The translations under genes and the position numbers were made by a program. From contig NZ_BAAAXG010000005.1 in the NCBI RefSeq assembly GCF_039535475.1, forward strand, positions 1-30,682: a stretch of DNA of 30,682 nucleotides, written 5' to 3'. Origin of the DNA: Streptomyces showdoensis. GTDB lineage: Bacteria > Actinomycetota > Actinomycetes > Streptomycetales > Streptomycetaceae. A model generated the notes under the pieces. That model did not search any database, was not told the origin of the DNA, and was given only the letters and a program-made list of their open reading frames with translations. Position 1 is the first letter of the stretch; each line of letters opens with the position of its first letter. Shown here piece after piece: positions 3,848-27,900 of this stretch.

Positions 3848-5223
3848 GCCGGTTCCCCGAAGGTGAGGCGGGTGACCCATTTGGTGTTGTGGACGCCCGG
3901 GGCCCCGGGGACGATGATCCGGGCCGGGTAGCCGTGGTCCTGGGACAGGACGGCGCCGTTGACCCGTACGGCCAGGAGGGAACGGGCGTCGCGTGCCTGG
4001 TGGGCGCTCAGGACGACGGAGCTGAACGAGCCGCCCCGTTGCAGGGACTCGACCAGGACCTGGGGCGTGTCCGTGCCCAGGCCGACGAGTGCGGCCAGGT
4101 CGGTGAGGCGGACGCCCCTCCAGTGCTGGTCGGGGGTGGACCAGCCTTCCACGCAGGCGATGGGAAGCAGGGCGTCGTTCTGCGGCATGGCCAGCAACCG
4201 TTCGTAGGTGAGGTCGGTCTGTCGGCCCGCCCCTCGTACGGTGAGCCGCCACCCGGGGCCGATGTCGCTGGGGCGGATGCCGACGGAGGCCGCGGTCTTG
4301 TTGATCTGGAAGCCGTTCGGGCCGGAACCCGGGTCCTGGCCGTGCGGGGCGAGCAGGGCCGTCTGCCGGAACCAGCCCCCGATGCTCTGGCCCGCGGTCA
4401 CGGCGAACAGGGCGAGGGAACCCAGTCCGACCATGCCCAGCGCGCCCCGCCGGGAGATCGTGGGCGGCGCCGGGCGGGGCGAGACGAGGCCGGCCGCCTC
4501 CTCGCTGCCGGGGGCCGGCTGGCGCGGCCCGGAGCGCAGGGCCCGCACGGCGCGCGGCAGGCGGAGGGTCACGTGGACGGCGAAGGCTCCGATGAACACC
4601 CAGGCCCCGTACAGGTGCAGCGTGTAGAAGGAGCCCGGGAAGACGTAGTGGAGCTGCACGTTGAGGATGCCGGTGACGAACTCGAAGCCCGCGCCTCCCA
4701 CGAGCAGGAGCAGGGAGAGACGCTCGGCGGCCTGGGCGGCCGAGCGGACGGGCGGCCAGGCGAACAGCTTCGGGATCACCGACCACAGCTTGGCCAGGAG
4801 TACGGGCACGAGCACGATGCCCAGGGTGACGTGGACGCCCTGGGTGACGCGGTAGAGCCAGTGGGGGGAGGTCGGCCAGGAGAACAGGTAGAAGCCGAGC
4901 CATCCCTTGTCGGGGGTCTGGTCGTTGACCGCGGCCAGGTCCGGGTCGTAGGCGGCGTACGACAGCAGGCCCGTCACGAAGAGGATCGTGACGCCGAAGA
5001 GCAGGACCGTCCCGAGCACCGCGGTCAGCCAGGGGCCGCGCAGCGGGCTGCGCCAGAACTCCGGCCGGGACGGGCCGCTTGGCGGGCCGGCCCGCCAAGC
5101 GGCGGCCGTCGTGTCCTTCAGTCGTGTGCGCCGGGTCCGGGCGGTGTCGTCGGGTTGCGCTCCCGCCCGCGCCCGGCCACCGGGTGGGGGCGTCCCGTCG
5201 TCCTTCGTGTCCGTCGTGTCCAT
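3844..5223 (-). CDS. Cytochrome-b-like / sulfite-oxidase-type molybdopterin oxidoreductase fusion
   Basis: A 459-residue fusion. Residues ~63-222 contain four hydrophobic segments with paired histidines (HWLYRVTQGVHVTLG; LHLYG...FAVHVTLRL), typical of a di-haem cytochrome b561-like anchor. A twin-arginine-like SRRGALGMVGLGSLALF at ~257-273 precedes the C-terminal domain. That domain has the sulfite-oxidase-fold signature ACVEGWSTPDQHWRGVRL; Cys357 is the expected molybdenum ligand. Further fold motifs are DHGYPARIIVPGAPGVHNTKWV. The predicted role is electron exchange between an extracytoplasmic substrate and the membrane quinone pool through haem; the substrate is unknown. The ATG at 5223 has GGAGG about seven bases upstream. 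The gene follows the GT87-like gene by 23 bases and overlaps the next gene by four. Both redox halves on one chain is a notable arrangement. Confidence 0.88.
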   Translation of the reverse strand: MDTTDTKDDGTPPPGGRARAGAQPDDTARTRRTRLKDTTAAAWRAGPPSGPSRPEFWRSPLRGPWLTAVLGTVLLFGVTILFVTGLLSYAAYDPDLAAVNDQTPDKGWLGFYLFSWPTSPHWLYRVTQGVHVTLGIVLVPVLLAKLWSVIPKLFAWPPVRSAAQAAERLSLLLLVGGAGFEFVTGILNVQLHYVFPGSFYTLHLYGAWVFIGAFAVHVTLRLPRAVRALRSGPRQPAPGSEEAAGLVSPRPAPPTISRRGALGMVGLGSLALFAVTAGQSIGGWFRQTALLAPHGQDPGSGPNGFQINKTAASVGIRPSDIGPGWRLTVRGAGRQTDLTYERLLAMPQNDALLPIACVEGWSTPDQHWRGVRLTDLAALVGLGTDTPQVLVESLQRGGSFSSVVLSAHQARDARSLLAVRVNGAVLSQDHGYPARIIVPGAPGVHNTKWVTRLTFGEPA

Positions 5224-9038: not shown

Positions 9039-9162
9039 GACTGCCACCGTAGGAACTCTCGCCGGACATAGCGGACACCGACTCCTTACGAAACGCGGAC
9101 GTCGGTCGTTCGGGGCAGCCGGCGGGCGGACGGGGGCGGGCGTGCGGTGCGACTCTTGCGGC
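9039..9162. promoter_or_regulatory. Divergent intergenic region, glycosyltransferase operon / response regulator
   Basis: These 124 bases must hold the promoters for the six-gene operon leftwards and the two-component system rightwards. I see no confident -35/-10 pair and no CCATCC-type sigma site. Neither start has a good ribosome-binding site, so leaderless or short-leader transcripts are possible. Control of the operon by the adjacent regulator is inferred from position only. Confidence 0.4.
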
Positions 9163-10032
9163 ATGAGCGCGACCCCGTCCCCGACCCCGGCCCCGGCCCC
9201 AGCCCCGCAGCCGTCTTCGGCCCCGACCCCGTCCCCGCCGCCGGCCTCGGCCCCGCCGGCCCCGTCCCCGTCTCCGCTCCCGTCCCCGACTCCGTCCCCG
9301 GTGCCGGCGCCGTCTCCGACTCCGCCGCCCGCCCGGATCCTCGTCGTCGACGACGACCCGACCGTCGCCGAGGTCGTCACCGGATACCTGCACCGGGCCG
9401 GCCACGCCGTCGAGCATGCCGCCGACGGCGCTGCCGCCCTCCGGTGCGCCACCAGGAACCCGCCCGACCTGGTGGTCCTCGACCTCATGCTGCCCGGCAT
9501 CGACGGCCTGGAGGTGTGCCGGCGGCTGCGGGCCGAACGCCCGGTGCCGGTGATCATGCTGACGGCGCGCGGGGACGAGGACGACCGGATCGCGGGCCTG
9601 GAGCTGGGCGCGGACGACTACGTCACCAAGCCGTTCAGCCCCCGCGAACTGGTCCTGCGCGTCGAGTCCGTGCTGCGCCGCAGCCGCACCGCGCCCCCAG
9701 CCCCGCTCGGGCCGGCCGTGCTGCGCGCCGCCGGGATCCACGTGGACCCCGCGACGCGCCGGGCCACCAAGGACGGCCGCGACCTCTCCCTCACCCTGCG
9801 GGAGTTCGACCTCCTCGCCCACTTCCTCGCCCACCCCGGCCGGGCGCACGCGCGCGAGCGGCTGATGCGGGACGTGTGGGGCTGGGAGTTCGGCGACCTG
9901 TCCACCGTCACCGTCCACGTGCGCCGACTGCGCGCCAAGATCGAGGACGACCCGGCCTCGCCCCGTCTCATCCAGACGGTCTGGGGCGTCGGCTACCGCT
10001 TCGATCCGGCCGGGCCGGAGGCGGGCGCATGA
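9163..10032 (+). CDS. OmpR/PhoB-type response regulator with proline-rich N-terminal extension
   Basis: A 289-residue product if the ATG at 9163 is used. Residues ~58-175 are a receiver domain: the acidic triad is at D63-D65, the phospho-acceptor Asp107 is in VVLDLMLPG, with MLTARG and the conserved Lys in YVTKPFSP. A winged-helix DNA-binding domain follows (LTLREFDLLAHFLAHPGRAHAR, TVTVHVRRLRAKIEDD, VWGVGYRF). The first ~57 residues are nearly all Pro, Ala, Ser and Thr, which is unusual for this family. An in-frame GTG at 9301 (residue 47) would give a normal length, but neither start has a clear ribosome-binding site. The stop overlaps the kinase start by four bases. Likely targets are the divergent operon or its own promoter, by position only. 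Confidence 0.88.
   Translation: MSATPSPTPAPAPAPQPSSAPTPSPPPASAPPAPSPSPLPSPTPSPVPAPSPTPPPARILVVDDDPTVAEVVTGYLHRAGHAVEHAADGAAALRCATRNPPDLVVLDLMLPGIDGLEVCRRLRAERPVPVIMLTARGDEDDRIAGLELGADDYVTKPFSPRELVLRVESVLRRSRTAPPAPLGPAVLRAAGIHVDPATRRATKDGRDLSLTLREFDLLAHFLAHPGRAHARERLMRDVWGWEFGDLSTVTVHVRRLRAKIEDDPASPRLIQTVWGVGYRFDPAGPEAGA
9170..9336 (+). repeat. CCCCGTCCCCGAC-like low-complexity tract
   Basis: Short C-rich units with period near six (CCCCGT / CCCCGG / CCCCGA) encode the Pro/Ala/Ser/Thr stretch at the N-terminus of the response regulator. Such tracts change length easily by slippage. Confidence 0.65.
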
Positions 10033-12358: not shown

Positions 12359-13046
<688 letters not shown>

Positions 13047-13063
<17 letters not shown>

Positions 13064-13760
13064 CGTCACGTCCGTTCGACCTTCCGACCCAGGCGTCCGT
13101 GTCGTAGCCGCGTTCCTCCCAGTATCCGGGCCGGACCGTGTCGGTGACAGTGATTCCGGAAAGCCACTTGGCCGACTTGTAGAAGTACATCGGTGCGACG
13201 TAGAGGCGGGCGGGGCCGCCGTGGGCGTGCGAGAGCGGCTCGTCGCGCAGCTTCAGGGCGACGAGCACGTCGTCCCGCCGGGCCTGGTCCAGGGTGAGGC
13301 TCTCGGTGTAGGCGCCGTCGAAGCACCGGAACCGGACCGCTCGTGCCCCGGGCCGTACCCCCGCCCTCGCGAGGAGGTGGGCGAGCGGGACGCCCTCGAA
13401 GGGGGTGCGGGGCACGCGCCAGCCGGTCACGCACTGCACGTCGTGCACGATCCTGCGCTGCGGCATCGCCTGGAGGTCCGCCAGCCGGTACGCGGCGGGG
13501 CGCTCCACCATTCCGTCGACCGTCAGTGTGTACGTCTCCGGGCCCCGTTCCGGGACGGACGAGGTCACGGAGTAGTACCGGAATCCGCCGGACCCGGGCA
13601 GTGCGGCCGCGAGCCCGGTGGGGTCCCGGCTCACCACCGCCTCCTGGGCGCGTTGCAGCCGGGGGCCCGCCAGGACGCCCACCGCGCCGAGGCCGAGGAG
13701 CCCCAGCACGACGCGGCGTCCGACCGGGGCGCCGCGGGTCTCGTCGTCGTCTTCGTCCAT
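13047..13760 (-). CDS. Sulfite-oxidase-fold molybdopterin oxidoreductase, membrane-anchored or Tat-exported
   Basis: A 237-residue product. An acidic N-terminus is followed by GRRVVLGLLGLGAVGVLAGP (~14-33), a twin-arginine-type signal or anchor. The catalytic domain shows HDVQCVTGWRVPRTPFEGVPL, with Cys110 at the molybdenum-ligand position, then VRFRCFDGAYTESL, ALKLRDEPLSHAHGGPARLY, and YFYKSAKWLSGITVTD. These match the YedY/MsrP-like sulfite-oxidase fold without the dimerisation domain of true sulfite oxidases. The substrate is unknown; MsrP-type repair of oxidised methionine is one possibility. I chose the ATG at 13760, since the upstream extension is low-complexity. It overlaps the cytochrome b gene and is read in the same direction as sigma/anti-sigma, 227 bases below them. 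Confidence 0.9.
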
Positions 13761-13853
13761 GGCGCCGATTCGACCAGGCGGTGACGCCGGTGACCAGGGC
13801 GGACGCTCGCCCGTCAGGGTTTCGTCATCTTTCGCCCCGCCGGGCCCCGCCCC

Positions 13854-13904
13854 GGTGCGGTGCACGGGTCGGTGCGGTGCGCGGGTCGGTGCGGTGCGCG
13901 GGTC
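13854..13904. repeat. Three tandem 17-bp repeats
   Basis: The unit GGTGCGGTGCGCGGGTC occurs at 13854-13870 (one mismatch), 13871-13887 and 13888-13904, followed by a degenerate partial copy. It lies in the 227-base gap between the anti-sigma gene and the sulfite-oxidase-like gene. Confidence 0.9.
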
Positions 13905-13987
13905 GGTCGCGGGCACCGGGAAGGCCGCGGCGCTCTGCGCGGTGGTCAGGCCGCCGACCGCGCGCAGGGTCAGCGCGCGGGCGGGCG

Positions 13988-14764
13988 TCAGGCGGGCAGG
14001 GCCAGCAGGAGCAGGGGCTGCGTCGTGGGCTGGGCGGATCCCCCGGCGGGTTCGAGGGTGAGCCCTACGGCGGTGGCGTCGGCGGGGTCGCCGGCGAGGG
14101 GGACGGTGCCGTCGGCGCGGATGAATCCGGCCGGTCGCATGGTGCCGTCCTGGTCGAGCCAGAGCTGGTAGGTGCTTCCCTCGGCCGGGACGGGCAGACC
14201 CGCTGCCGTGAAGACGGCCTTGTTCTGCCGGTCGGAGCTGACGACCGTGGTGAGCGCGCCGTTGGTGGCCAGGCCGTGCACGGTGCGGGCGTCCGGCGCG
14301 GCCAGCACGGCGCTGACGGCGTCGAGCTGCCGGGCGGTCTGCCGGGCCTGCTGCCGGGCGTCCTGGCTCTCCTGGTACTGCCAGGCGGCGAGGCCGGCGA
14401 AGGACACGGCGGCGGCCAGGCTGGCGGCCAGGGCGAGGGGGACGGCCTTGCGCCTCAGGGCGCGGGCGGAGCGCCGGGCCGGGCCGGCCGCGGGGGCCTG
14501 TGCCGGGTCGGTCGCGGGGAGCCGGGGCGGGAGCTGCCGCACGGCGTCGATGGCGTTCATGGTCCGCTGCTTGAGGGCGGGGGGCGGGTCCTGGGCGGTC
14601 GCCGCGGCCAGGCGGGCGGCGGTCGCCTCGAACTCGGCCACGTCCCTGCGGCAGTCCTCGCAGTACGGGAGGTGCGCGGCGAAGTCGTCGCGCTCGGCGG
14701 GGTCGAGGGCGTCGAGGGCGTAGGCGGCGGCGAGGGCGTGGAGGTCGGAGCGGTGCTGGTTCAT
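13988..14764 (-). CDS. rskA: RskA-type membrane anti-sigma factor
   Basis: A 258-residue product. The N-terminal zinc anti-sigma domain has LHALAAAYALDALDPAER and HLPYCEDC (His31-x3-Cys35-x2-Cys38), the classic sigma-binding ZAS motif. A basic linker precedes one transmembrane helix at ~108-127. The extracytoplasmic C-terminal domain (QYQESQDARQQA onwards; STYQLWLDQDGTMRPAGF; VGLTLEPAGGSAQPT) matches the RskA C-terminal domain. The protein should hold its sigma factor at the membrane until the signal-dependent release seen for M. tuberculosis RskA. The ATG overlaps the sigma stop by four bases, which fits stoichiometric co-translation. Confidence 0.92.
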   Translation of the reverse strand: MNQHRSDLHALAAAYALDALDPAERDDFAAHLPYCEDCRRDVAEFEATAARLAAATAQDPPPALKQRTMNAIDAVRQLPPRLPATDPAQAPAAGPARRSARALRRKAVPLALAASLAAAVSFAGLAAWQYQESQDARQQARQTARQLDAVSAVLAAPDARTVHGLATNGALTTVVSSDRQNKAVFTAAGLPVPAEGSTYQLWLDQDGTMRPAGFIRADGTVPLAGDPADATAVGLTLEPAGGSAQPTTQPLLLLALPA

Positions 14765-15417
14765 GTGGTCACCCCCATGCAGTCGCGGAGCCGGATGAGT
14801 CCGTCGCGCATGCGTGTCTTGATGGTGGGAAGCGGCGTGTGCAGGGTCTCGGCGACTTCACGGTAGGTGAGTCCCCCGTAATAGGCGAGTGTGACCGCCT
14901 GGCGCTGGAGTTCGGTCAGGCCGCGCAGACAGCGCCGTACCTGCTCGGACTCCAGGCGGGTCTCGACCTGCTCGGCGACCTCGTCGAAGGCGGTGGTGTG
15001 CTCGCGGGCCGCCTGCGCGTGTTCGCGGTCGGTGGCGGCCTGGGCGGAGCGGACCCGGTCCACGGCCCGGCGGTGGGCGATCGTCGCCGCCCACGCGGTG
15101 ACGGACCCGGCGGCGGGCTGGTAGCGGGCGGCCTGCCGCCACAGGTCGATCATGACCTCCTGGGTGACCTCCTCGGACTGGGCGCGATCGCGCACGACTC
15201 TGATCACGATGCCGAACACCGTCGGGGCGAGGGCGTCGTAGAGGGTGGCGAACGCCTGCTGGTCGCCCTGGGCGACCTTCCGCATCACCTCGTCGAGGGC
15301 ATGGCGCGGGGGCGGGCCGGGGGCGTCGAGGGGAACGGGGCGGTTCACCGGGCGGGCTCCGTGCATGGGGACCAGACGCAGCCGTCCGGGACGGCCGGCC
15401 GGGGGCGGGGTGTCCAT
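14761..15417 (-). CDS. sigK: SigK-like ECF RNA polymerase sigma factor
   Basis: A 218-residue ECF sigma factor with regions 2 and 4 only. Region 2 (~50-125) has AFATLYDALAPTVFGIVIRV, EEVTQEVMIDLWRQA (core binding) and WAATIAHRRAVDRVRS (-10 recognition). Region 4 (~165-213) has LTELQRQAVTLAYYGGLTY and the helix-turn-helix YREVAETLHTPLPTIKTRM (-35 recognition). The ATG at 15417 has AAGGA about ten bases upstream; a later ATG (residue 18) lacks one, so the longer form is preferred. Pairing with an RskA homologue and closeness to dipZ and an MPT83-like gene identify it as SigK-like. A CCATCC-type promoter 83 bases upstream, shared with dipZ and the lipoprotein gene, suggests it transcribes itself. 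Confidence 0.92.
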   Translation of the reverse strand: MDTPPPAGRPGRLRLVPMHGARPVNRPVPLDAPGPPPRHALDEVMRKVAQGDQQAFATLYDALAPTVFGIVIRVVRDRAQSEEVTQEVMIDLWRQAARYQPAAGSVTAWAATIAHRRAVDRVRSAQAATDREHAQAAREHTTAFDEVAEQVETRLESEQVRRCLRGLTELQRQAVTLAYYGGLTYREVAETLHTPLPTIKTRMRDGLIRLRDCMGVTT

Positions 15418-15499
15418 CGCATGCGGGTCCTTGGTCGGGGGCGGGGCCGGCCCGGGGACGTGGGCCGGTCGCAGGGCCGGAAGGCTGCCTGCACAGACC

Positions 15500-15526
15500 C
15501 TTCGTAGCGGACGGGCGTGCGGATGG
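15500..15526 (-). promoter_or_regulatory. SigK-type promoter of sigK-rskA
   Basis: Reading leftwards, CCATCC (15526-15521), a 15-nt spacer, then ACGAAG (15505-15500). It matches the dipZ and fasciclin promoters in both boxes and spacing, and TCCGCT just before the -10 box is shared with the fasciclin site. The start codon is 83 bases from the -10 box. This implies autoregulation. Confidence 0.78.
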
Positions 15527-15558
15527 GAGACGTTTCCGCCGTCGCCTCCGGCCTGCGC

Positions 15559-15574
15559 TCACTCGTACGAGTGA
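15559..15574. promoter_or_regulatory. 16-bp perfect palindrome, possible operator
   Basis: TCACTCGTACGAGTGA is a perfect inverted repeat with no spacer, 33 bases upstream of the sigK -35 box and ~317 bases upstream of the dipZ -35 box. Its size suits a dimeric transcription-factor site. The cognate regulator is unknown. Confidence 0.55.
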
Positions 15575-15789
15575 AAGGATGGCGGGCCGCCCGTCCGGAG
15601 GCCCGGTGACCCCGAACGGCACGGGAAGGAGCCGCTCCTGGCTCCTCCGCCGGCCCGCGCAGGACACGGGCGGAGCGCCCGGGCGGCGCGCGCCGCACGC
15701 AGAGCCGTGGTCCTGGGCGGGCCGCGTGCTCCCCGCGTGGCCCGGGCGCCGCTTCCGTAGCTTCCGCACCTCTCCGCCCCCTCGCACGG

Positions 15790-15852
15790 CACCAGACACC
15801 AGACACCCGGCATCCGGCATCCGGCACCCGGCACCCGGCACCCGACACCCGA
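15790..15852. repeat. Nine tandem heptamers, CACCCGG family
   Basis: Nine consecutive 7-bp units (CACCAGA x2, CACCCGG, CATCCGG x2, CACCCGG x2, CACCCGA x2), ending 38 bases upstream of the dipZ -35 box. A related heptamer array lies at 18643-18698. Confidence 0.9.
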
Positions 15853-15890
15853 CATCCCGGACTCGGGCTTCAGGCACGGCCCCTGCCGTG

Positions 15891-15917
15891 CCATCCGGCG
15901 GCGCGTCCGGACCGAAT
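15891..15917 (+). promoter_or_regulatory. SigK-type promoter of dipZ
   Basis: CCATCC at 15891-15896, a 15-nt spacer and CCGAAT at 15912-15917; the dipZ ATG is 42 bases downstream. Both boxes and the spacing match the fasciclin promoter exactly and the sigK promoter closely. Confidence 0.82.
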
Positions 15918-15958
15918 AGGCGTCGAGAGACAAGCCCGGGACGAAGGAGGTCTTCGAC

Positions 15959-17737
15959 ATGGTCACTCTGGTGCTGATCGGGCTGCTGGGCGGTCTGATC
16001 ACCGCGGTGTCGCCCTGCATCCTCCCCGTCCTGCCCGTCGTCTTCCTGGCGGGCGGCCCCGGCACGGACGCCCCGGCACGCCGCGAGCACGCCGCCGTCG
16101 GTGCCCCCGGCGGGCCGGCCCACGACTCCGTGCCCGCCGGCGCGCCGCCCCCGGCCCGTCCGCCACGGAACCTCCGCCCCTACGCCGTCGTCGCCGGACT
16201 GGTGCTGAGCTTCGGCTTCTTCACCCTCCTCGGCGTGACGATCATCTCCGCACTGGGCCTCCCCCAGGACCTCCTGCGCTACCTGGGGCTCTCCCTCCTC
16301 GTCCTGATCGGCCTCGGACTCGTCTTCCCGCCCGTCGAACGGCTCCTGGAGAGGCCGTTCGCCCGCATCCCGCAGCGGCAGGTCAACAAGGAGGGCAGCG
16401 CCTTCGTCCTCGGCCTCGGGCTCGGCCTGCTCTACGTCCCCTGCGCCGGGCCGGTCCTCGCCGCGATCACCGTCGCCGGGGCGCGCGGCGAGATCGACGC
16501 CGACATCGTCGTGCTCACCGTGGCCTTCGCCGTCGGCACCGCGATCCCGCTCCTCGCCTTCGCCCTCGCCGGACGGCGCGTCGCCGAACGGGTCGCCGCC
16601 TTCCGCTCCCGGGCGCGCAGGCTCCGCGTGGTCTCCGGCATCCTCATGATCGCGCTCGCCTTCGCCCTCGCCTTCGACGTCACCACCGCCCTCCAGCGCG
16701 CCCTCCCGGACTACACGCGTGCGGCACAACGGCGGGTGGAGGACAGCGACACCGCCCGGCAGAAGCTCTCCGGCCTCTACGACTCCTCCAACAAGGACCT
16801 CTCCCGCTGCGAGGACGGCGTCGACGAACTCCGCTCCTGCGGCCAGGCACCCCCGCTCGCCTCCCTCTCCGCCTGGCTCAACACACCGGGCGGCCGGCCC
16901 GTCGACCTCGCGTCCCTGCGCGGCCGGGTCGTCCTGATCGACTTCTGGACGTACTCCTGCATCAACTGCCGGCGCAGCATTCCGCACGTCGAGGACTGGG
17001 ACCGCGCCTACCGCGACAAGGGCCTGACCGTCATCGGCGTCCACTCCCCCGAGTTCGCCTTCGAGAAGGACGCCGGCAACGTCGCCGACCAGACCCGGAA
17101 GCTCGGCATCACCTACCCGGTCGCCCTCGACAACAGGCTCGACACCTGGGACAACTACCGCAACCGCTTCTGGCCCGCCAAGTACCTGATCGACGCGAAC
17201 GGCACCGTCCGGTACTTCACCTTCGGCGAAGGCCGCTACGCCCGGACCGAGAACCTCATCCGCGAGCTGCTGCGCCAGGCCGACCCCACCACCGTGCTCC
17301 CGCCGCCGACCGACCGGTCCGACGACCGGCTCACGGCGGACCGCACCCCCGAGACCTACCTCAGCACCCTCCGGCTGCACGGCTACACCGGGACTCCCGC
17401 GCTCGCCGAGGACCGGCCGGTCACGTACTCCTTCCCCACCGCAGGCGTCCCCCTCGGCGGGGTCGCCCTGGCCGGCACCTGGACCACGGGATACGAGCAC
17501 TTCACCGCGGGCCCCGACGCCCGCCTCGCCCTCACCTACCGGGCCGGGAACGCCAACCTCGTCCTCGCGGGCGAGGGCACGGTGACCGTCTTCGTCGACG
17601 GCGTACGGACCCGGACCGTCGAAGTCCACGGCACACCCACCCTGTACCGGCTCACCGAGCACGACACCGCCCGCGAGGCCCGCCTCGAACTCCGCCTCAC
17701 CCCCGGCCTGCAGGCCTTCGTCTTCACCTTCGGCTGA
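15959..17737 (+). CDS. dipZ: DipZ-like thiol-disulfide redox protein (CcdA/DsbD membrane domain plus TlpA-like thioredoxin domain)
   Basis: A 592-residue product. Residues 1-245 form a CcdA/DsbD-type membrane domain with redox cysteines Cys20 (AVSPCILPVLP) and Cys162 (YVPCAGPVLAA); a Pro/Ala-rich loop at ~32-72 separates the first two spans. Residues ~297-435 are a TlpA-like thioredoxin domain with active site CINC (Cys334, Cys337) in FWTYSCINCRRSIPHVEDW. Residues ~445-592 are a beta-rich domain typical of DipZ C-termini. Extra cysteines at 284 and 294 lie in the linker. It should carry cytosolic reducing equivalents across the membrane to extracytoplasmic disulfides. The ATG at 15959 has AAGGAGG eight bases upstream. 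The SigK-type promoter and the convergent fasciclin gene reproduce the mycobacterial DipZ-MPT70/83 association. Confidence 0.93.
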   Translation: MVTLVLIGLLGGLITAVSPCILPVLPVVFLAGGPGTDAPARREHAAVGAPGGPAHDSVPAGAPPPARPPRNLRPYAVVAGLVLSFGFFTLLGVTIISALGLPQDLLRYLGLSLLVLIGLGLVFPPVERLLERPFARIPQRQVNKEGSAFVLGLGLGLLYVPCAGPVLAAITVAGARGEIDADIVVLTVAFAVGTAIPLLAFALAGRRVAERVAAFRSRARRLRVVSGILMIALAFALAFDVTTALQRALPDYTRAAQRRVEDSDTARQKLSGLYDSSNKDLSRCEDGVDELRSCGQAPPLASLSAWLNTPGGRPVDLASLRGRVVLIDFWTYSCINCRRSIPHVEDWDRAYRDKGLTVIGVHSPEFAFEKDAGNVADQTRKLGITYPVALDNRLDTWDNYRNRFWPAKYLIDANGTVRYFTFGEGRYARTENLIRELLRQADPTTVLPPPTDRSDDRLTADRTPETYLSTLRLHGYTGTPALAEDRPVTYSFPTAGVPLGGVALAGTWTTGYEHFTAGPDARLALTYRAGNANLVLAGEGTVTVFVDGVRTRTVEVHGTPTLYRLTEHDTAREARLELRLTPGLQAFVFTFG

Positions 17738-17769
17738 CACGGAGCCCCTCGTACGAAGAGCGCACACGA

Positions 17770-17814
17770 GAAGGGCGGTGCGCCACCGGTACGGCCGGCG
17801 GCGCACCGCCCTTC
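17770..17814. terminator. Strong bidirectional terminator between dipZ and the fasciclin gene
   Basis: A perfect 15-bp GC-rich stem (17770-17784 with 17800-17814) with a 15-nt loop lies between the convergent stops at 17737 and 17828. It should end transcription from both sides. Confidence 0.85.
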
Positions 17815-17827
17815 GGCGGCCCCGGGA

Positions 17828-18469
17828 CTACTTGGGCATGAGGACCGTGTCGACGATGTAGACGGTGGCGTTGGCGGTGGGCACGTTGCCGCAGACGACC
17901 TTGGAGGAGTCGTTCACGGTGTACTCCTGGCCGGAGCCCTTGGTGGTGATCGTGCCCTTCTCCAGGGTCACGAACGTGCCGTTCTCCAACTGCTTCGGCG
18001 TGAGCTTTTCCCCGACGACGTGATAGGTGAGGATCTTGGTGAGGGTGGCCTTGTCGGCCAGGACCTTGTCGAGGTCGGCCTTGGGGATCTTGGCGAAGGC
18101 CTCGTTCGTCGGCGCGAAGACGGTGATGTTCTGGGCGTTGTTCAGGGTGTCGACCAGGCCCGCCTGCTTGACCGCGGCGACGAGGGTGGACAGGGCCGGG
18201 TTGTTGGAGGCGGCGGTGGCCACGGGGTCCTTGGCCATGCCCTCGAACGAGCCGGCCCCGTCCTTCGGCACACCGGCGCAGGCCGGTCCGAACGGGCCGT
18301 CGGACGCCATCGGGTCGGAGGACGTCTGCGCCGCGGGCGGCGCGGCCTGCGCGGTGTTCTCGGCGGACGACGTGTCCTTCCCGGAGTCGGAGCAGGCGGC
18401 GAGGGCGAACGGCAGGGCGGCCGCGGCGGCCACGGCCACCGCGGAACGACGGAAGCGCAGGGTGTTCAT
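17828..18469 (-). CDS. Fasciclin (FAS1) domain lipoprotein, MPT83/MPT70-like
   Basis: A 213-residue product. Signal peptide 1-25 ends in lipobox LAAC, with Cys26 the lipidation site. A low-complexity Ser/Ala/Pro linker runs to ~58, then one FAS1 domain. Family motifs are GMAKDPVATAASNNPALSTL, ITVFAPTNEAFAKIP (H1 box), LTKILTYHVVGEKL and ANATVYIVDTVLMPK (H2 box). Cys64 (GPACAGVP) and Cys193 (KVVCGNVP) sit where MPT70/MPT83 form their single disulfide, and the surrounding residues closely resemble MPT83 as I recall it. It is probably an envelope-anchored adhesion or interaction protein. The ATG at 18469 has GGAG eight bases upstream. It is convergent with dipZ and preceded by a SigK-type promoter 124 bases upstream. 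Confidence 0.93.
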   Translation of the reverse strand: MNTLRFRRSAVAVAAAAALPFALAACSDSGKDTSSAENTAQAAPPAAQTSSDPMASDGPFGPACAGVPKDGAGSFEGMAKDPVATAASNNPALSTLVAAVKQAGLVDTLNNAQNITVFAPTNEAFAKIPKADLDKVLADKATLTKILTYHVVGEKLTPKQLENGTFVTLEKGTITTKGSGQEYTVNDSSKVVCGNVPTANATVYIVDTVLMPK

Positions 18470-18592
18470 GGGGTGCTCTCCAGAGGTGAGGCAGGCGTAC
18501 GGAGACCGCGGAGAGCATCCGGCGGCGACCAGCTCGCGGCAGGCGGGGCTCCCGGGTGCCGCGGGGTCGTCACGTCGGTGCTCATGTCCGGC

Positions 18593-18619
18593 ATTCGGAG
18601 CGGAACCCCGGGCGGATGG
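18593..18619 (-). promoter_or_regulatory. SigK-type promoter of the fasciclin lipoprotein gene
   Basis: Reading leftwards, CCATCC (18619-18614), a 15-nt spacer, then CCGAAT (18598-18593). The -10 box lies 124 bases from the ATG, implying a leader of ~115 nt. Identical boxes and spacing occur before dipZ. Confidence 0.82.
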
Positions 18620-18642
18620 GTGCGATCCGCCACCACGTGCCG

Positions 18643-18698
18643 GAACCGCGAACCGGGAACCGAGACCCGAGACCCGGGACCCGAGCCCCGGGACCCGG
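18643..18698. repeat. Eight tandem heptamers, GACCCGG family
   Basis: Eight consecutive 7-bp units (GAACCGC, GAACCGG, GAACCGA, GACCCGA, GACCCGG, GACCCGA, GCCCCGG, GACCCGG) lie 24 bases upstream of the fasciclin -35 box. The shared core ACCCGG and the position just outside the promoter mirror the array upstream of dipZ. Confidence 0.9.
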
Positions 18699-18799
18699 GA
18701 GTGGCCCGTCGCCGCCGCCCCGCGTCTCGCCGGCGGCCAACCGGCGCGGGTGCGTCGCGGCCCTCGAGCGTCCGCGCGCCGTCCACGGAGGGGGCACGG

Positions 18800-18830
18800 C
18801 CGAAGCCGCCCCGTGGCCGGGCGGCTTCGG
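18800..18830 (-). terminator. Hairpin terminator after the ricin-domain fragment
   Basis: A perfect 11-bp stem (18800-18810 with 18820-18830) with a 9-nt loop lies 57 bases beyond the stop of the minus-strand lectin fragment, separating it from the fasciclin promoter. Confidence 0.65.
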
Positions 18831-18886
18831 ATTCGTCACCACACCCCCACGGAACGAGGGCATGGCCGGGCAGAGCGCGGCTCGGC

Positions 18887-19252
18887 TCAGGACCACAGGG
18901 TCCAGCGCTGGTTGACCGCACCGTTGCACGGGTACTGGCGCACCTGCTCCCCCCCGGTGCCGCTCCAGGTCGCCTCCAGGCACTTGCCGCTGTGCACGGC
19001 ACGCAGCTGGACGGCTCCGCCCGAGACGGCTTCCAGGCGCCACCGCTGGTTGGTGTCCCCGTCGCACTGCCACTGGATGAGTCCGGCGCCGTCGGCCCGG
19101 CTGGCGTCGTACACGTCGAGGCACTTGCCGCTGTGCCGCGCGACGATCGCGTAGCTGCCGTCGCCGTTCCGCACGAAGTCGAATGCCCCGCCCGCGGTGC
19201 GAGGCCGGGGCTCACGTCGAGGAGCATGGTCGGCGTGGTGTCCCGAGCGCAT
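18887..19252 (-). pseudogene. Ricin-type beta-trefoil (CBM13-like) lectin domain, C-terminal part of a broken gene
   Basis: The frame encodes two ricin repeats, each with a GKCLD/E motif and a closing QRW motif: ARHSGKCLDVYDASRADGAG with IQWQCDGDTNQRWRL, and HSGKCLEATWSGTGGEQV with YPCNGAVNQRWTLW. These bind carbohydrate in secreted actinobacterial enzymes. A full domain has three repeats and a secreted protein needs a signal peptide; both are missing. The first ~25 residues of the open frame do not resemble the family, and upstream sequence gives only scrambled frames. The gene is therefore 5'-truncated or frameshifted at ~19.2 kb, just where sequence quality seems to fall. Native length and any linked catalytic domain cannot be recovered. 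Confidence 0.75.
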
Positions 19253-19489
19253 GGGGCGTGTGTCCCGAACCGCTGGGACGGGGCGGCGCTGGGGGGCCTG
19301 GTCGTCGCCGTGAGGGAGGACTTCGCGGCTCCTCCGGGCCCCGGATGTGCTTGACCGGAGGGCCAGGAGTGCCCGGGTCGGTCGATCACGGACGCGCCGG
19401 ACCCGTCCCCCGGCCGGGCGGCCTTCCGGCGTTCACGGCGTGGCGCGGCGCTGCCGGGAGCAGGATGAGTGTGGTGCCGAGCCGGCGCC

Positions 19490-19760
19490 TTACCCCTGCC
19501 ACAAACCCCCATAGGCGCGCCGAGGTGAATTCCCGATGGTGACGGACGCGGTACGGCAACCCCCTGCACGAGTGCACCCTGGAGACGGCCGGGCACCTGC
19601 GACCGGGCCGTCGAGGCGCTGCTCCACTTTCAGCCCGGAGGTCGAACGGGCCGTCGGTGACTGCCGTCGACAGCGCGCCCGCCTCGCCGCTCGCGCAGTC
19701 CTTCGCCGCGTACTTGGGGGTGCTCTGGGTTTTTCCGGTAACGTGAACACAGTTTTCTCT
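19490..19760 (-). pseudogene. Possible decayed or error-broken coding fragment
   Basis: Between ~19640 and ~19735 one minus-strand frame (TPKYAAKDCASGEAGALSTA, then VTDGPFDLR) uses almost only G/C at third positions, like the intact genes. It then shifts to another frame (LKVEQRLDGPVAGARP). No family is recognised. It may be an upstream part of the lectin gene or a separate gene with frameshifts. Confidence 0.3.
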
Positions 19761-20320
19761 TTTTGTTTTCTTGTGACGGGCCGCTGGACTTCGCGGCACG
19801 CGCGGCGGTGTTGTGCGCGATGGCACTAGTACCTGGCCCGGGTATCCGGACCTTTGTAGGCACGTAAGACCGGCCGCTAACGCCGGGCCTGCCCTGCGCG
19901 GAGCCGGGCTGCACGTCACGCAGGGCCGCGCCTTGCTCGCGCAGACCTGCGGCAGGCCTCGGGCTGCTGGAGGAGCTGTCCGCCTGTGCGTACCGCGAGG
20001 GAACTCGCGCTCAGCCCTTGCCGTCGCGCACCAGCTGGACTTCTTCCAGCACGCGCGACGCCGTACGCCTGCGAGCGACCGGATCGCGAGCCCTGTCCGC
20101 TCTGGACCCCGCGACCCGACACACCAGCTGGTGCTGGCATGCTAGCGCGTTCGGGCTTGAGGACGTCGGGTCACTACAGCGCAGGCCGAGGAGGCGGGCT
20201 CGCCGCGCGTCGAACACGACCCTCGGCGAACGAAAAGCGTCGCTGGGCGATCCAGCGCACACCCGAGTGAGTCCTCACAGTACGAGACCTGCAGGGACGC
20301 AGGTCGAAGCATCGCTACCT
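19761..20320. other. Transitional gene-free stretch
   Basis: Still fairly GC-rich, with patches resembling Streptomyces coding DNA, but no frame holds for more than a few dozen codons. No RNA gene, insertion sequence or clear repeat is visible. Confidence 0.6.
20011..20075 (-). pseudogene. Possible 3' end of a lost minus-strand gene
   Basis: The frame ending at 20011 closes with TASRVLEEVQLVRDGKG and a stop, with strong third-position GC, resembling a genuine actinobacterial C-terminus. Upstream the signal is lost within ~60 bases. No product can be named. Confidence 0.2.
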
Positions 20321-21116
20321 CGACGCACGGCGCGGCCGACTGGGCGCGGACAACATACTCTCGACGTCGCACACATAGTGGCACTCACTGCTACGCCGAC
20401 TAGAGACGGGGCCGGGACACCGCACGCGCCAGCCCTAAATGGCGCGTCTACGACGCCGATACTCGGCCTGAGTCACCCGCGACTACGACAGGACTCGACA
20501 ACAGCCGCGTGTATACGGCCCGCGATAGGACATCATGCTGGACGCCCTAAAACCATGCGCGCAGGCTGAGTGGGCGGATACACAATCAGAGTAACTTGGC
20601 GATAATGCATGAGGCACCGACGACCGAAGGCACAGCTTGGAAGCACCATACAGGCAGACGCCCTCCTCGTGGGCACGGACGCGGGCTCGCCACCCGCCGG
20701 ACCTTACGCCTTCAAAACGACGTACCCACACACGCGACACAGGATATGGCGCTTCGAAGCCGGGATCCCCGACGTCGGACCCTGCCTAGACGCGCCGGCC
20801 GCGAAGACGGACTCATCGCGGACACGGTCGGAGGGCTGACCCGCGCAGACGCCGGCACGGACCGACCCGACACCGTCGGTCAAACAACCACAGGCATGAC
20901 AGGGCCGAAATCGGGGACCACCGCCATGCGAGGCGTTCGCTCGCGACAATACGCACCGGGGCGACCACGCCAGACGACAGTCGTGGGACATGCGTGGACG
21001 CCTGCGCCGCAGGCTGCACGAGTTCTTGGGGGGCAGCCACGCCCAGCGCGACGACACACAAAGAGCACTCTTGCCTCGACTCCAGACCATCACGGAAATA
21101 TCCACACATAAACCCA

Positions 21117-21142
21117 TTTTTCTTTTTTTTTTTTTGTTTTTT
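21117..21142. repeat. Poly-T tract
   Basis: Runs of 5, 13 and 6 T separated by single C and G bases. This is unlike the GC-rich genome to the left, and odd in a stretch otherwise poor in T. Confidence 0.9.
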
Positions 21143-22302
21143 CCTTTGTGGGGTTGCCCCCGGCCCCAAAAAACCATACACGGAAAGGCCAGTCGCAAGG
21201 ACCCTCCACCCCCATTGCAGGAGCGTAAGCCGCAACGACAAGCAACCCCATAGAGCACCATAGCATTGCACTACATTCGGAAGCACTCTCCCTCCCCCTC
21301 CCCCACTATGACCAACTAGTTAGCAGAATTGCGAAGCACAGGGGATCACACAGCAGCCATAGAACAACGCAAGACATAAAGTCGCCCCCTTAAGCTTTAT
21401 TTTTAAAATATCGGCAACACTCTCAACAGTCTAAGCACGCGTTACGATAATTGAATCAGCCCCCTAGAGAACCCAAAGGGGCCCGGGCAAACGAAACATA
21501 CATGCATAAATAACACCGTCCCGAAACATCTATGTGGTAAATAGCCACCCAAATCCGACCCCGCCCTTAGCGACCAAACGGGACACGCCCCAATACTGAA
21601 CCACAATTAGTAAGCCGCACGCCATCCCAGTCCCCCCCTCCCCTCCACCCGTGAGAGCGCTGCTAGCCTGAGTGCCCACCGGACCCCAGTAACAATACAC
21701 CTACCGGCAGACACCAAGACATATTCTAGCCTACACCTCTGATACCGCATTAGGCTCCGAAAACGTCAGGCATAAAGCACACTCAAACTACTAAGAGCTA
21801 GAGAAAAAGAAGGCCAAGTCCGGGCTAACAAAAACCAAGTTTCCACATGACGATCCGCCAACAGGCCCATGTGGCAAACCATCGAGGTGCCACACGGCAA
21901 CGTATCAAGAGCATTACGCACACGGGCCTGTCCGAACGGCAAACCAATGAAGGCCTTAATTTAGACTACAAAGAAGCACTAATCGGCTCACGCCAACACA
22001 CAACAAATTAGCACTGGAGGCAGCATAAAAGAGGCACAGATACCCAAGCCGAAAGACTGCATAGATCAACAAGCACAATCAGTAGGCCACGACACCACCC
22101 GCGCCCACAGCAACTGAAGCGCATCAGGCGCCAGCGGCCAGGCACCCATAACGTTCCACACACATCACAGTCAGCACGCATACAACATACCGCACACGCC
22201 GAGCTCTGACATTCAATGCATAACAACCAATGGCTCCCTCTGCCACCCAATTGACCCTGAATAACCAAGCGAACCCCATTGAGACGCCAACCAGCAGACC
22301 GT

Positions 22303-22326
22303 CCCCCCCCCCCTTCCCCCCCCCCC
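22303..22326. repeat. Poly-C tract
   Basis: Eleven C, two T, eleven C. Runs of this length are rare in real bacterial DNA and typical of poor consensus. Confidence 0.9.
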
Positions 22327-22737
22327 TCGTTATCTCTAGACCAGACCAGCTATAAAACCAGTAGCCCACGTTAAGGCTTTCTAGCAAGCTACCCAGGGAC
22401 CACGGATTCGACCACGGCGTTTGGGATTGCAGCAGCGCCTTACAGGGTCGACCGCAACAGCCTCACTAGAGTTGCCGCACCACAGTCCATCCCAGTCGCC
22501 TAACCGCGTAACTAAAAGCTCATGTAAGCCCCCAGCAAACGTGAAATAGACAGCTTGTAAAAAGAATCCACGCGTCCCATACGCTTAGGCGGTCGACGCA
22601 TATTCATCTTGCTCTAGTGCAGGACTATACAGAGGCAAGAACAGCCAGACATGGAGCAACCTCGAGATGACCGCCCCGCGCGATACCGGAAAACCTAGGG
22701 GACGCCTTCCTTTCAAACCTCCAGGTGCAGCCGATCG

Positions 22738-22747
22738 TTTTTTTTTT
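22738..22747. repeat. Poly-T run
   Basis: Ten consecutive T, a further homopolymer in the gene-free stretch. Confidence 0.85.
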
Positions 22748-25700
22748 CAACTGGTGTCCGTCTCCGTGACAACTCGGGAGCCACCGACAAGCAGAAAACA
22801 CTCACTCCGCAAACACGTCCGGACCATGCGCACTAGCACCCGGCCCTCCTAACGTAAAGCACCAGTGATATCCGAATCGCCTTACGACTCCACAAAAGAC
22901 GTCTACGGTTGCTTAACTATTTCGCCTCGGCGCCTGGAGCGGGCCGTCTGGTCCGTCGGGTTCCGACGGGGCACCATCAACCGTCCGTAACAGCGCCCCC
23001 ATAACCCGGCCCATCGGTGCCTCAAGCCTAGACCCCGGCCCTTACGTAGCGCTCCGACCGCACAACATACTGCTCCCCCGACTTCACTCGTACGCGACAG
23101 TTAAGCCATATTTTACCACCATTGCACCAAAGAATCCTCCTCAGCGCTTCGGGTCGCCCCCCCTCTCCTCGGATTCCACACGATCCACGTCCCCCGGACG
23201 AAGTACACCTCACAATCCGAGACCCATAAAGGCCTACAATGACATTACCAAGCATGTCGTCATCTTGACCAGGACGCCAGTAATCGCCCTTTAAACGCCC
23301 TCGGAAACCGTCTACATGACGCCACGCCTCGACATGGCCCCCACACGGTCCCCCAGGGGACTTAACCGCTTCCCGCCCGCGGACCCCGGATCGCCCCATA
23401 TTCGCGACCAGGAAGCACAAGAAGGACTACGTATTAGCCACTACGCCCCCTCTTCTGGCAAACTTACCGCCGCTGGCACGACGCACAAACGGGAGACCGC
23501 CTGCCCAATGAACCCGTCCGAAGGACTCAATCCGATGTTCAACCGCCACAAGTTGAGAATAATAGACCTTCTACGCGGCCGTACGCCCGGCCGTACTGCC
23601 TCCCTTCTAGCAGAAACGCCGTCCTCATAAATACACCTCCTTAAGAACACCGAGCAAATGCCCATGCCGCGCCCTCACGTAGCACGTAACAGCAGGCCCT
23701 TGCGCCAGATGAAACAAAGAGATCAATTCCCAAAGCCAATTAGAGTACATGAGTGTCGTATAATCGTACCTATTAAGACACAGTATGGGCAAGACGCTCT
23801 AAACGCTACAAACAGGTCCCAGGATGTGTAGAACCGCACAGCACAACATCCCGCCCGCCGAGGCGACACTTTGAGACGGGCATAGCCCTACGCCCACTGC
23901 AGCCCCCCAGTCGACCCCCACTCGCATGCGGGGAAACTTGTTCCGCGGCACCTCCACTTACTCTTGGATATGGATCATTCGCTGCGCACACGAAGTAACC
24001 AAAGTAAAACCGCCCCCGTAGCCAAAGAGCCATGCTGCACAGATGATGCCGCCCAGCAGCACGAAATGCAAGCCTCGTACCCTATAAGGCCCCTAGCCCG
24101 CAACTTTCGGCTGAGAGAGGCCCTCGGGACCGTCAGAAACGCCCCTGCGCTAGCCGATAGAGCAGGCAGACGAGGTATCCCCACTTACCGCCCATACAAA
24201 GTAGACCGGTCAATGAAGCAGATCGGTACGTGACGTGAAACCGGCCCCCCCAGGATGCGCCACAGATAGAAGCCTAATCAACCCGGAGGAACCCTCTCCA
24301 TCCCCCCCCAAGAGCACACTCCGGACCACGGCGTACTACCTTATCCCAGCCGGAGCCGAATACAGCTGTCCGAAGGCCGCCGCACCGTGCGCCTTTTTCT
24401 TCACACTCCCTTTACAGCGAGGACCTAGGGATCACCATTCATAGCGACCCAGGACGTGGACCTACGCCGAGCAACCAGCTCGACCCGACGGCGACCCGCA
24501 CAACGTTGGCCGCCACGTTTAATTGGCCCTATTGGAAGGTACGCGACCGACCCCCATTCCAGCCCGGCGCACGCATATCACAGCCCGGCCTTCACAAACA
24601 TATGCGCGCGCCGCCAAGCGTGCTTCCAGGTATGTGCAAGTCCTAAACATAGTGGCCATTTAAGCTGCTACTGTGTCCTCCATCATCCGACATCGTCAAA
24701 CATGCGAAGGCGATACACTGCCTAACGCAGAACCCGCCGCCACTGTCTATCTGGAAGGAATAAGCCAGGTAGCAACCACCACTAGATAGCACGCAGTAAG
24801 ACGTATATTCATCGTAAGACCTTATGCGGGTAATGCAACAGGGAACGCGGAAGGCTCAACACAAGACCGGCACACGGGAATACAAAGGCGCCGAAATAAG
24901 GAGCCAAACTAGCGCGACACCCTTACGTCGAGTTTGCGTAAGCAGCGGCACTCCCAATTACGCTCTAGTCCTGCCGCCTGATTCCACGCAGCATAAATCC
25001 TGCAGAGGCCGGGCATAGTCCGCAGTGCGTCCAGCCCGCAACCGTCACGCGAATATTGATCGTCCTAACAAGTAATTCAGACATGACAGGAAAATAGCAC
25101 CGCAGGCCAAACAGGCCGATTCACACGCGCACCAAGCGAGCATGGCGCCAGAGCACTCAAGGCCTGGACCCGGACCAGACCCCACCACCCAAGGCGCTTA
25201 TCCATGTCCAGATTAAAAAAGGATTGTACGCCAACACCGACAATGAAGACCCACAGACGAGAAGACCACGAGGAAAAGCCAAGATCGAAGAGAAGACCCG
25301 AGCAAACCTGTACTGACCAAACCGCAATACGGGCGAGAGCGGTCGGCGAATCGTGGTACATCCGAGCGCAAATCACGCATCCTGAGAGCCACAGGTCAAA
25401 AGGCCCATGAAGAAATCCAGCCCACTACAGGCACGCCCGATCCGAGCACCTCTACGCAATTCGGGCAGGCCTGACCCTCCCGCCCCCCCCACAAGTGGCC
25501 GCCCCCCAGTCTTGAGCAATTAATCGCCGCCCGCAGACGAGTTCTGGAAGCCTAATTTCTGGTTGGAGAATCAGAGTGCGGAGCATACCCACATCATCAG
25601 GAGAGTCCAAAGTATAGCACCGCTTCAGAGAGCGTCGTGATGCGATCCCTCGACCCACTGCCGAAACCGCCCCCGCCTGAGCAATTCGTAGTTCGCGCGG

Positions 25701-27900
25701 CTGATGGCACCCCGCCCCCCGGGGTTCTCTATGTCGGACACTCGATACGAACGACGACAAACGTCCGGATAAGCACATCCAATCATAGCATATAGGCGTC
25801 CATGTAAGGTGCCCCGTGGGCGCTCAACAAAACAACGTACAACGCTCCCACAGATCGCAGCACACTGCGCAACGAGCGCACGCGCCCCACCCATCTCGCG
25901 ACTCCGGTCATTAGCACCCTGTGGTGGCAGCACGCGAAGCACTTCGCTGCTACTACGGCAATTGTGAGGCCTGACGACCATGTGACCAGTAGATCTGCCC
26001 AAAGAGCTAAGCCAAGGTATCTCCGTGGGCCTATCAACGGCAAAGAGCACCAGAGGGAAGCCTTATAGACGTGAGTTGTACGATCCGTATTTAGACTCGC
26101 CCATTATTGACCCTCAAGACCCGTCACCGTCTGTCCCGAAGAAACTTTTCCTTCGGGCACCTCATATGACGCCGAAGTCTCGACACGGTGACATTACCCG
26201 AAGCCATCTGCTAGCACCGGCCTAGGGGTGATTCGATGACGCGACTTGCTAGGACAGGCCCCCCCCACACGGTCAAGTTTGGTCCGGGGTCGGCTACCGG
26301 GGGGTGTCCAGGGCCCTCCAAATGGCCCGCGCTGGCGGGCCCACTAACTGGCCCATCCGCAGCCGCCCGTGTGCGACCATAGGTGTAGCGACAGACGTGC
26401 GCGCGACCGCTATCATCAGCGGCGGAAGCAGGCGGCAGGGCACCGCGGCCCAGCTCGCACCTCGCATAATCGCCTTTTTTTGACGCGGAAATGATGAGAC
26501 AAGGGCACAAAGCGAAGCAAATTCTTTCGAATGTACACAACGTGATGACTAGGTTCTAGTCTCCCTCGCATGGCGCCGCGCCGTTGCTTCCACCACGTAA
26601 GCTCCGGGCCCACACGACAGAGTATTGCCAACTTCAGAGCGACAGCCACGACCTAGTCGAGCCCGCTCTCCGCATCACGCCCTTGGTTCCGTTCCTAGTG
26701 AGCCACACTGTTATCAGACCCCCACTAATTGTCGCCGCTAGCGAGCCTCAGCTACACGCTGATACAACAATACGTAATATAAAGAGAGCGTATAAACGCT
26801 AGCGGGTGTTACAACTAGACAACTACAGAATACGGTCCCGAACGAGGGAGTACGCACGAATTCCTTTTCAACTTACGTTCTTCTCTCCCCCCCCAGGACG
26901 GCTGCGAAATACCACAATAGACGCGCTGCAGAACCGCGCGATGGACAGCTGGAGCTCAGTACAAGAGCCCAAAACGTGATTTCAATGTATAGTACAAGCC
27001 TGAAAAACTATTAACAACGTGGCTTCTCGAGCCATACATAGTCCGTTTCAGAGACGCGACCCCTCCCTTTTTAACTGCTCTATTACTCTTCTCTTGTGAG
27101 GCGTACGGGCAGGCAGTACATGAAAAGGAAACCGCAGACGCCAGCGACAGCCAAGACAGATAATTTTGGATTAAGTAGTGCGAAAGACTCCGCCCAGCAG
27201 AGAGTGTTGGGACAGTCTGCGACACACTGTAGGAACAGGGCAGTGACCGCCACAGCCAAGTCCCCTGTGCGCTTACTTTCCAGTCCTTCGATTGGGCTTC
27301 CCACCATGCATCGATCGCTCACGAGCCGCACAAGGTGAAGCGTTGCTTTGAAGCGCCGGCGGGTATGTTCCACGCCTCCGCCGCTGACGCTGGGGAACGA
27401 CCCCAGCGGCCAGACGTGAAGGCACTATCGCACGGTTGTAATAGACCGGGGCCACTACGCGCACGCCGGGGCACGTGTCCTTAACGCGGCCGCAAGCGGC
27501 CGATTAGCCATTCAACACCGACGAACGGGGGATCCACGAGACCGTGTTCCACCACATTGGATCGGAAGGCGAACCAAGCCTCAGTCCGTGGAAGCCGAAC
27601 TATGGCAAAGCACCCGGCTAGCACAGAACGAGCGTCGGACGTGCGAGGCGCTGAGAGACCGTCGACGTAGAAGCCAGGTTCCGCCGACCACAGTCAGATA
27701 CTGCGCCACGCCCACCGTCACCTGCCCCGAGGACAAGTGATGTCCGGCCGGCCGCCCCGAGGACGGGATTCAGCCGCTTGCCCAAGTAATCCTCAACTCT
27801 GTGGGACGTGCCCCGCTTCTAGCGCCACCACGGCTGTGGAGCCGCCTCCCCCCGCCGGAAGCACGACATCCGCCCACGAGCACGCCAAGAATAGAGATCA

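Follow-up and report, generated by a model that had tools for sequence, protein, structure and literature searches.

The 30,682-nucleotide stretch of the Streptomyces showdoensis genome analysed here (the window) carries a cluster of genes for SigK, an extracytoplasmic function (ECF) sigma factor, its anti-sigma factor RskA, the membrane protein DipZ and a fasciclin-domain lipoprotein, and an exact copy of a single bipartite motif, CCATCC-N15-(A/C)CGAA(T/G), precedes each of sigK-rskA, dipZ and the fasciclin gene. The site of sigK-rskA (15500..15526, minus strand) reads CCATCC-N15-ACGAAG with GCT before the -10 box and is assigned to class R; those of dipZ (15891..15917, plus strand) and of the fasciclin gene (18593..18619, minus strand) read CCATCC-N15-CCGAAT and are assigned to class E. 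There is no fourth exact site in the window. The gap between site and start codon is 82 nt for sigK from ATG 15417 or 151 nt from GTG 15348, 41 nt for dipZ and 123 nt for the fasciclin gene, and an earlier note on this DNA, which had placed three such sites upstream of starts in the right orientation, was exact in coordinates, strands and 15-nt spacer. Judged from sequence, the three sites are probably the promoters of a sigK switch, a thiol-redox protein and a surface lipoprotein. They would very probably be read by RNA polymerase carrying SigK, a member of the ECF19 group, placing its own operon, dipZ and the fasciclin gene under its control in a regulon shared with two further cassettes of the same genome, on the contigs designated C24 and C25.

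Profile and structure matches uphold the gene identities proposed in the earlier note. The sigK gene (14761..15417, minus strand, with GTG 15348 also possible as start) encodes an ECF19-type factor that scores 282.5 bits against NCBIfam NF007228 (cut-off 226); its best solved relative is Mycobacterium tuberculosis SigK (PDB 4nqw, E 1e-48), and that match aligns the two redox cysteines numbered 133 and 183 in M. tuberculosis. The rskA gene (13988..14764, minus strand) shares 4 nt with the end of sigK, and its product has an RskA_C domain (PF10099, 103.4 bits) and a zf-HC2 domain, the sole solved match being weak (3hug, 'probable conserved membrane protein', E 3.4e-4). The dipZ gene (15959..17737, plus strand) encodes a DsbD-type membrane domain and thioredoxin-like domains recognized by Pfam, and matches the solved DipZ structures 5cyy (E 1.5e-96) and 2hyx (E 1.6e-96). 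The fasciclin lipoprotein, of the MPT83/MPT70 type (17828..18469, minus strand; PF02469, 118 bits), matches MPT70 (1nyo, E 1.6e-35), with transforming-growth-factor-beta-induced proteins scoring slightly higher, and a lipobox-like LAAC stretch can be read from its translation.

Inexact matches in the window are near the chance level (16 with at most two mismatches against 8.9 expected, a count reached in 2 of 100 shuffles), and it is therefore the exact class that stands out. A search of positions 13400-19000 for a sigma-70-type promoter found none. Across the genome the -35 box is better written C(C/A)ATCC; the CCATCC of the earlier note is exact at the three window sites, and the two C25 effector sites read CAATCC. 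The pattern C(C/A)ATCC-N15-(A/C)CGAA(T/G) has ten matches in the 8.5-Mb genome versus two for a reversed control, and these fall in the window (three), on C24 (two), on C25 (three), and on contigs C29 and C26 (one each). Eight of the ten lie inside the three sigK-rskA-fasciclin cassettes, and the C29 match is a second reading of the window's fasciclin promoter at 18593 and not independent. The genome scan that the earlier note had proposed, with CCATCC-N14-16-MCGAAK, yields 16 matches versus six for the reversed control. In 27 Streptomyces genomes without SigK at E<=1e-60, together about 210 Mb by hand summation of the listed sizes, the motif occurs 98 times, which predicts about 0.0015 sites per 3.1 kb where the window has three; the expectation that a chance triple match is very unlikely was thus well founded.

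The genome encodes three SigK proteins above the cut-off (the next factor scores 117 bits), three proteins with an RskA_C domain and three distinct fasciclin proteins (a fourth match being the C29 overlap). The paralogs of the window's SigK are 83% and 79% identical to it, with nearly identical sigma-4 (C-terminal) parts, and the corresponding values are 74% and 70% for RskA and 78% and 78% for the fasciclin protein. On C24, exact sites stand before sigK and before the fasciclin gene, and a site with one mismatch precedes a series of genes for a flavin oxidoreductase, DUF1365/cyclopropane synthase and DUF1295. On C25, an exact site precedes sigK, and CAATCC sites precede a molybdopterin oxidoreductase gene, with the fasciclin gene next on the same strand, and a gene for a His/Trp-rich protein taken to be secreted. 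The molybdopterin site shares one base with the called start, and the true start is therefore probably further in. Because the same code fronts the C24 and C25 cassettes, any of the three SigKs probably reads all sites, and the cassettes probably form one shared regulon. The earlier note's local regulon therefore stands in that sigma factor, anti-sigma factor and targets lie in one cluster, and falls short in that the regulon is not only local. At least one SigK is encoded in 94 of 121 Streptomyces genomes, and at least three in 8 of the 121.

The site recurs with sigK across the genus. The comparison covered 80 named loci (78 titled Streptomyces; L039-L118), 133 loci from a genus draw, partly the same places, and the genome's own three cassettes, with gene starts from a simple purpose-made caller that leaves some distances rough. 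At N15 the named loci hold 136 strict matches, against 0-8 at each of the other spacings from 10 to 21, and the genus-draw loci hold 128, against no more than eight at each of the other spacings tested. Among the 127 sigK genes called in the genus-draw loci and the three own cassettes, 54 have an exact site, 38 more have one with at most two mismatches to the CCATCC form and 35 have none (nine of these 136 loci gave no sigK call at the score cut used). With a relaxed last box, a site lies upstream of 168 of 214 sigK genes (two of 216 loci lacking a sigK call), 49 of 54 flavin oxidoreductase genes, 50 of 75 molybdopterin oxidoreductase genes, 11 of 16 genes for the His/Trp-rich protein, 27 of 89 fasciclin genes and 2 of 6 dipZ genes; among the comparison classes the figures are 0 of 204 for rskA and 55 of 2463 for genes without a query match. 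Both redox cysteines are present in all 214 SigKs aligned, and the published figure for two conserved cysteines is 56% of ECF19 proteins. The N16 spacer may be genuine at a few sites, with 15 such matches in the 216 loci, six of them before a sigK, fasciclin or molybdopterin gene.

Beyond the genus, SigK was found above the cut-off in 166 of 296 genomes drawn from the class. One locus was taken from each of 20 of the 23 SigK-bearing genomes of a distant family, f4, which we take to be mycobacterial from its gene orders. A site precedes the sigK operon in 11 of these 20 loci, always ending CCGAAT and with GCT before the -10 box in eight of the 11, and one of the 11 has a second site, ending CCGAAG. 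The strict pattern occurs 13 times at N15 and at most once at any other spacing from 10 to 20, and the boxes and spacing of the window agree with those before the f4 sigK operons. In 4 of the 20 loci, matches were obtained to the full series flavin oxidoreductase, DUF1365, cyclopropane synthase, DUF1295, sigK. Of the four upstream stretches of f4 fasciclin genes, those of L336 and L339 have a site and those of L337 and L338 do not.

The proposed mechanism begins with RskA, which would hold SigK at the membrane until a cell-surface signal, probably with a redox change at the two conserved cysteines of SigK, frees or switches the sigma factor. SigK would then transcribe its own operon, a direct positive autoregulation, together with dipZ and the fasciclin lipoprotein gene, and any of the three SigKs would read all sites, forming one regulon that serves envelope redox and surface proteins. 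Proteins of the DipZ family carry thiol-disulfide exchange across the membrane, and it may be speculated on that ground that SigK acts back on the redox signal that triggers it. The cargo (DipZ, molybdopterin oxidoreductases, the fasciclin lipoprotein and other apparently exported proteins) suggests a role in envelope redox and surface protein upkeep.

Several observations weigh against this interpretation. Even the relaxed motif is lacking upstream of 46 of the 214 sigK genes (39 of them outside the subclade of the window's SigK described below), and no site stands before sigK in 9 of the 20 f4 loci, including three with dipZ adjoining sigK or one gene off. The 27 fasciclin genes with a site among 89 were counted within 330 nt, and a number of the others sit behind a molybdopterin gene; the C24 fasciclin site lies 580 nt before the called start. 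Only two of the six dipZ matches have the site. Genomes without SigK still average 3.6 motif matches (n=27), although those with it hold more (mean 6.5, n=94). Lastly, SigK dependence, transcription starts, signal and cross-reading among paralogs are all inferences from sequence.

The account that survives best beside a shared regulon is one of insulated paralogs, in which each SigK reads only its own cassette by flanking or spacer differences and the window is a closed local regulon. Each cassette does have its own sigma factor, anti-sigma factor and fasciclin gene, and the two C25 effector sites read CAATCC where the window sites read CCATCC. The boxes and spacing are otherwise alike, however, the sigma-4 parts are nearly identical, and CCATCC and CAATCC are mixed within single loci in many species, so that we regard insulation as unlikely.

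The evidence for dipZ as a SigK target is the thinnest of the three. DipZ is a member of the M. tuberculosis SigK regulon, and the site before the window's dipZ is as expected of a regulon of that type. The gene is rare in Streptomyces (6 of 121 genomes at E<=1e-80), none of the five other dipZ loci cut out (L285-L289) has a site at one mismatch or fewer, and the three f4 loci with dipZ adjoining sigK or one gene away lack a relaxed site; the window site could then be fortuitous, a by-product of lying next to the promoter region of sigK. Against this, the window's dipZ has an exact site at a distance of 41 nt. The cassette-linked dipZ of L209, which is also the dipZ of L287, is preceded at 51 nt by a relaxed site, CAATCC-N15-GCGAAG, and that of L057 at 39 nt by CCGTCC-N15-CCGAAT. 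In f4 the gene adjoins sigK on its upstream side in two loci and is one gene off in a third. Two f4 genomes have it flanked by two fasciclin genes, and of these L336 has a SigK-type site ahead of the first fasciclin gene while L337 does not. An accidental site is accordingly considered improbable.

Another regulator, or another ECF factor such as the product of a second ECF gene on C24, might bind the site with SigK as a mere neighbour, since all of the evidence is association and an ECF gene of another type does lie beside the C24 sigK. That gene has no match in the window or in locus L018, the site tracks sigK across the genus and into f4, and conserved SigK sites are described in the available part of PMC7509140, all of which makes this explanation very improbable. 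Chance, the falling of short GC-rich boxes upstream of genes, draws on the near-chance level of inexact window matches and the 3.6 exact matches per SigK-free genome, and was rejected as negligible on the genome count, with eight of ten exact N15 matches in cassettes, and on the N15 spike in the sets of 80, 133 and 20 loci.

The window's SigK belongs to a subclade of 83 leaves that is exactly monophyletic in a FastTree tree (support 99). In this subclade the promoters of sigK and of the flavin/cyclopropane operon end CGAAG and those of exported effectors end CGAAT. Among distinct promoters, G ends 61 of 64 for sigK and 16 of 19 for the flavin oxidoreductase, and T ends 31 of 32 for the molybdopterin oxidoreductase, 8 of 8 for the His/Trp-rich protein, 8 of 9 for fasciclin and the single dipZ promoter (1/1); GCT stands before the -10 box in 55 of the 64 sigK and 13 of the 19 flavin promoters. 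The genome's own three cassettes likewise have G at sigK and T at effector promoters, and the C24 flavin operon site ends in C. Outside the subclade, 67 of 80 sigK promoters end in T and six in G. CGAAG had appeared as a genus-wide mark of sigK (58 of 65 in the first 80 loci), a generalization rejected once it proved largely confined to the window's subclade. The G/T change is essentially one event on the tree, which supports a coordinated history and not a function.

The SigK proteins differ in parallel with their promoters. Residue 174 (numbered from GTG 15348; in sigma-4) is proline in the window's SigK, as in 72 of 79 proteins with CGAAG-type promoters of their own, and glycine in all 79 of the CGAAT type (P174 in 0 of 79), and the respective counts are 70 versus 1 for Q72, 64 versus 0 for D68 and 63 versus 0 for A88. 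No causal role is claimed for these four residues, which are confounded with one clade. A search for covariation of the second -35 base with the sigma-4 helix was likewise dropped, the signal being weak (mutual information no higher than 0.29 bits) and uncorrected for relatedness. We propose tentatively, as a possibility and not as the expected outcome, a two-tier code in which a single ancestral change made the sigK and lipid promoters GCT-N-CGAAG and exported effectors kept CGAAT, so that one sigma factor could tune feedback and output strength separately and runaway feedback among cross-reading paralogs would be limited. The split makes for a one-base prediction on feedback strength.

The core finding is a further case of the published SigK site and mpt83-sigK-rskA cassette and not a new kind of system. 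In its available part, PMC7509140 describes SigK sites as highly conserved among Actinobacteria, the mpt70 promoter as read by orthologous SigKs, RskA as an inhibitor of its SigK with altered forms that activate (in M. tuberculosis and Yersinia), and M. tuberculosis sigK autoregulation as running via the Rv0449c promoter; it also cites Veyrier 2008 for a minimal mpt83-sigK-rskA cassette with a conserved SigK site, and places an mpt83-sigK-rskA cassette even in Gram-negatives. With the M. tuberculosis SigK-RskA regulon (MPT70, MPT83) so described, the window shares the sigma, anti-sigma and fasciclin families, the two redox cysteines and autoregulation, the last suggested here by the site. It differs in that a SigK-type site stands directly upstream of sigK in place of the Rv0449c-promoter route, that dipZ, fasciclin gene and sigK-rskA lie in one cluster, and that the genome has three paralogous cassettes. 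No flavin oxidoreductase match was called beside the window's sigK, and the C24 flavin operon has its separate one-mismatch site. The window shares gene set and promoter site with the minimal cassette as reported through PMC7509140, its fasciclin lipoprotein gene with an upstream site lying beside sigK-rskA, and adds dipZ; the C24 and C25 cassettes differ from that minimum in lying near molybdopterin oxidoreductase, flavin oxidoreductase and cyclopropane synthase genes. The ECF19 and AS19-1 groups of PMC7406223 are linked to the window by the N-terminal RskA motifs AYALDAL and ERDDFAAHL, which fit, when compared by eye, the AS19-1 helix consensus in the portion of that paper available. Streptomyces coelicolor SigK (SCO6520) shares the name alone, being a group 3, SigB-type factor and not an ECF factor in the available text of PMC9205884.

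Beyond the claims of the earlier note lie the three co-resident paralogous cassettes with one code and the CGAAG and CGAAT promoter classes. No paper on a Streptomyces ECF19 regulon was found in the literature searched, most subscription papers being outside its reach; PMC8999054 tabulates a Streptomyces albus ECF19 protein among non-canonical mechanisms, and PMC8965627 reports lowered RskA in a soil actinobacterium exposed to ultraviolet light. The hexamers CCATCC and CCGAAT, which the earlier note gives as resembling the mycobacterial SigK sites, were not found in the SigK papers searched, and no SigK promoter sequence was found in the available portions of PMC8914203 and PMC4821874. A regulon known mainly from tuberculosis-group bacteria is here tied to a tractable soil genus, with sigma factor, anti-sigma factor and targets together. 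With so few other sites in the genome, a single experiment could test the entire predicted regulon, and the coexistence of three paralogs under one promoter code makes insulation from cross-talk a well-posed question.

Downstream of rskA lie a molybdopterin oxidoreductase gene (13047..13760, minus strand; PF00174) that has no SigK site of its own and is a possible read-through target, and, adjoining it, a cytochrome b561-type gene (12359..13063, minus strand; PF01292), likewise without the motif. To the right, C29:1-2114 equals window 17605-19725 with no mismatches and 13 gap openings over 2124 positions; the two contigs therefore overlap at one locus, and a duplication of the fasciclin gene on C29 was rejected. 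From 19601 to 21083 the identity to C29, 99% in the overlap, is down to 72% with many gaps, a stretch at about 28.7-30.4 kb shows about 58%, and no clear C29 match was found between 21083 and about 28.7 kb. GC content falls to 52-60% over much of 19725-30682, and the window to the right of about 19.7 kb looks like an uncorrected, error-rich contig tail, with a chimeric contig as a possible alternative. Open reading frames (ORFs) in this tail are on that view unreliable; the promoter finding is untouched by it.

Further observations concern sites and genes outside the cassettes' core. The sole exact N15 site of the genome outside the cassettes and the C29 overlap, C26:4040224-4040250, is followed after 58 nt by a 203-aa gene that has no Pfam match; the site may be a chance occurrence or an additional SigK site. 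In L018, a 132-aa protein rich in His, Trp and Lys, without a Pfam match, is encoded at 9115-9513 with a CAATCC SigK-type site. CAATCC-N15-CCGAAT occurs near 19-20.5 kb in L051, L052, L055, L061 and L062 before genes outside the cassette queries, one of them with a weak CHRD match; these genes are possible further SigK targets. The reversed-box control gave 19 matches at spacing 11 in the 80 named loci. In the window, an ORF with a ricin-type lectin domain (18887-19252, minus strand) lies upstream of the fasciclin promoter, and a second protein with a molybdopterin oxidoreductase domain is encoded at 3844-5223.

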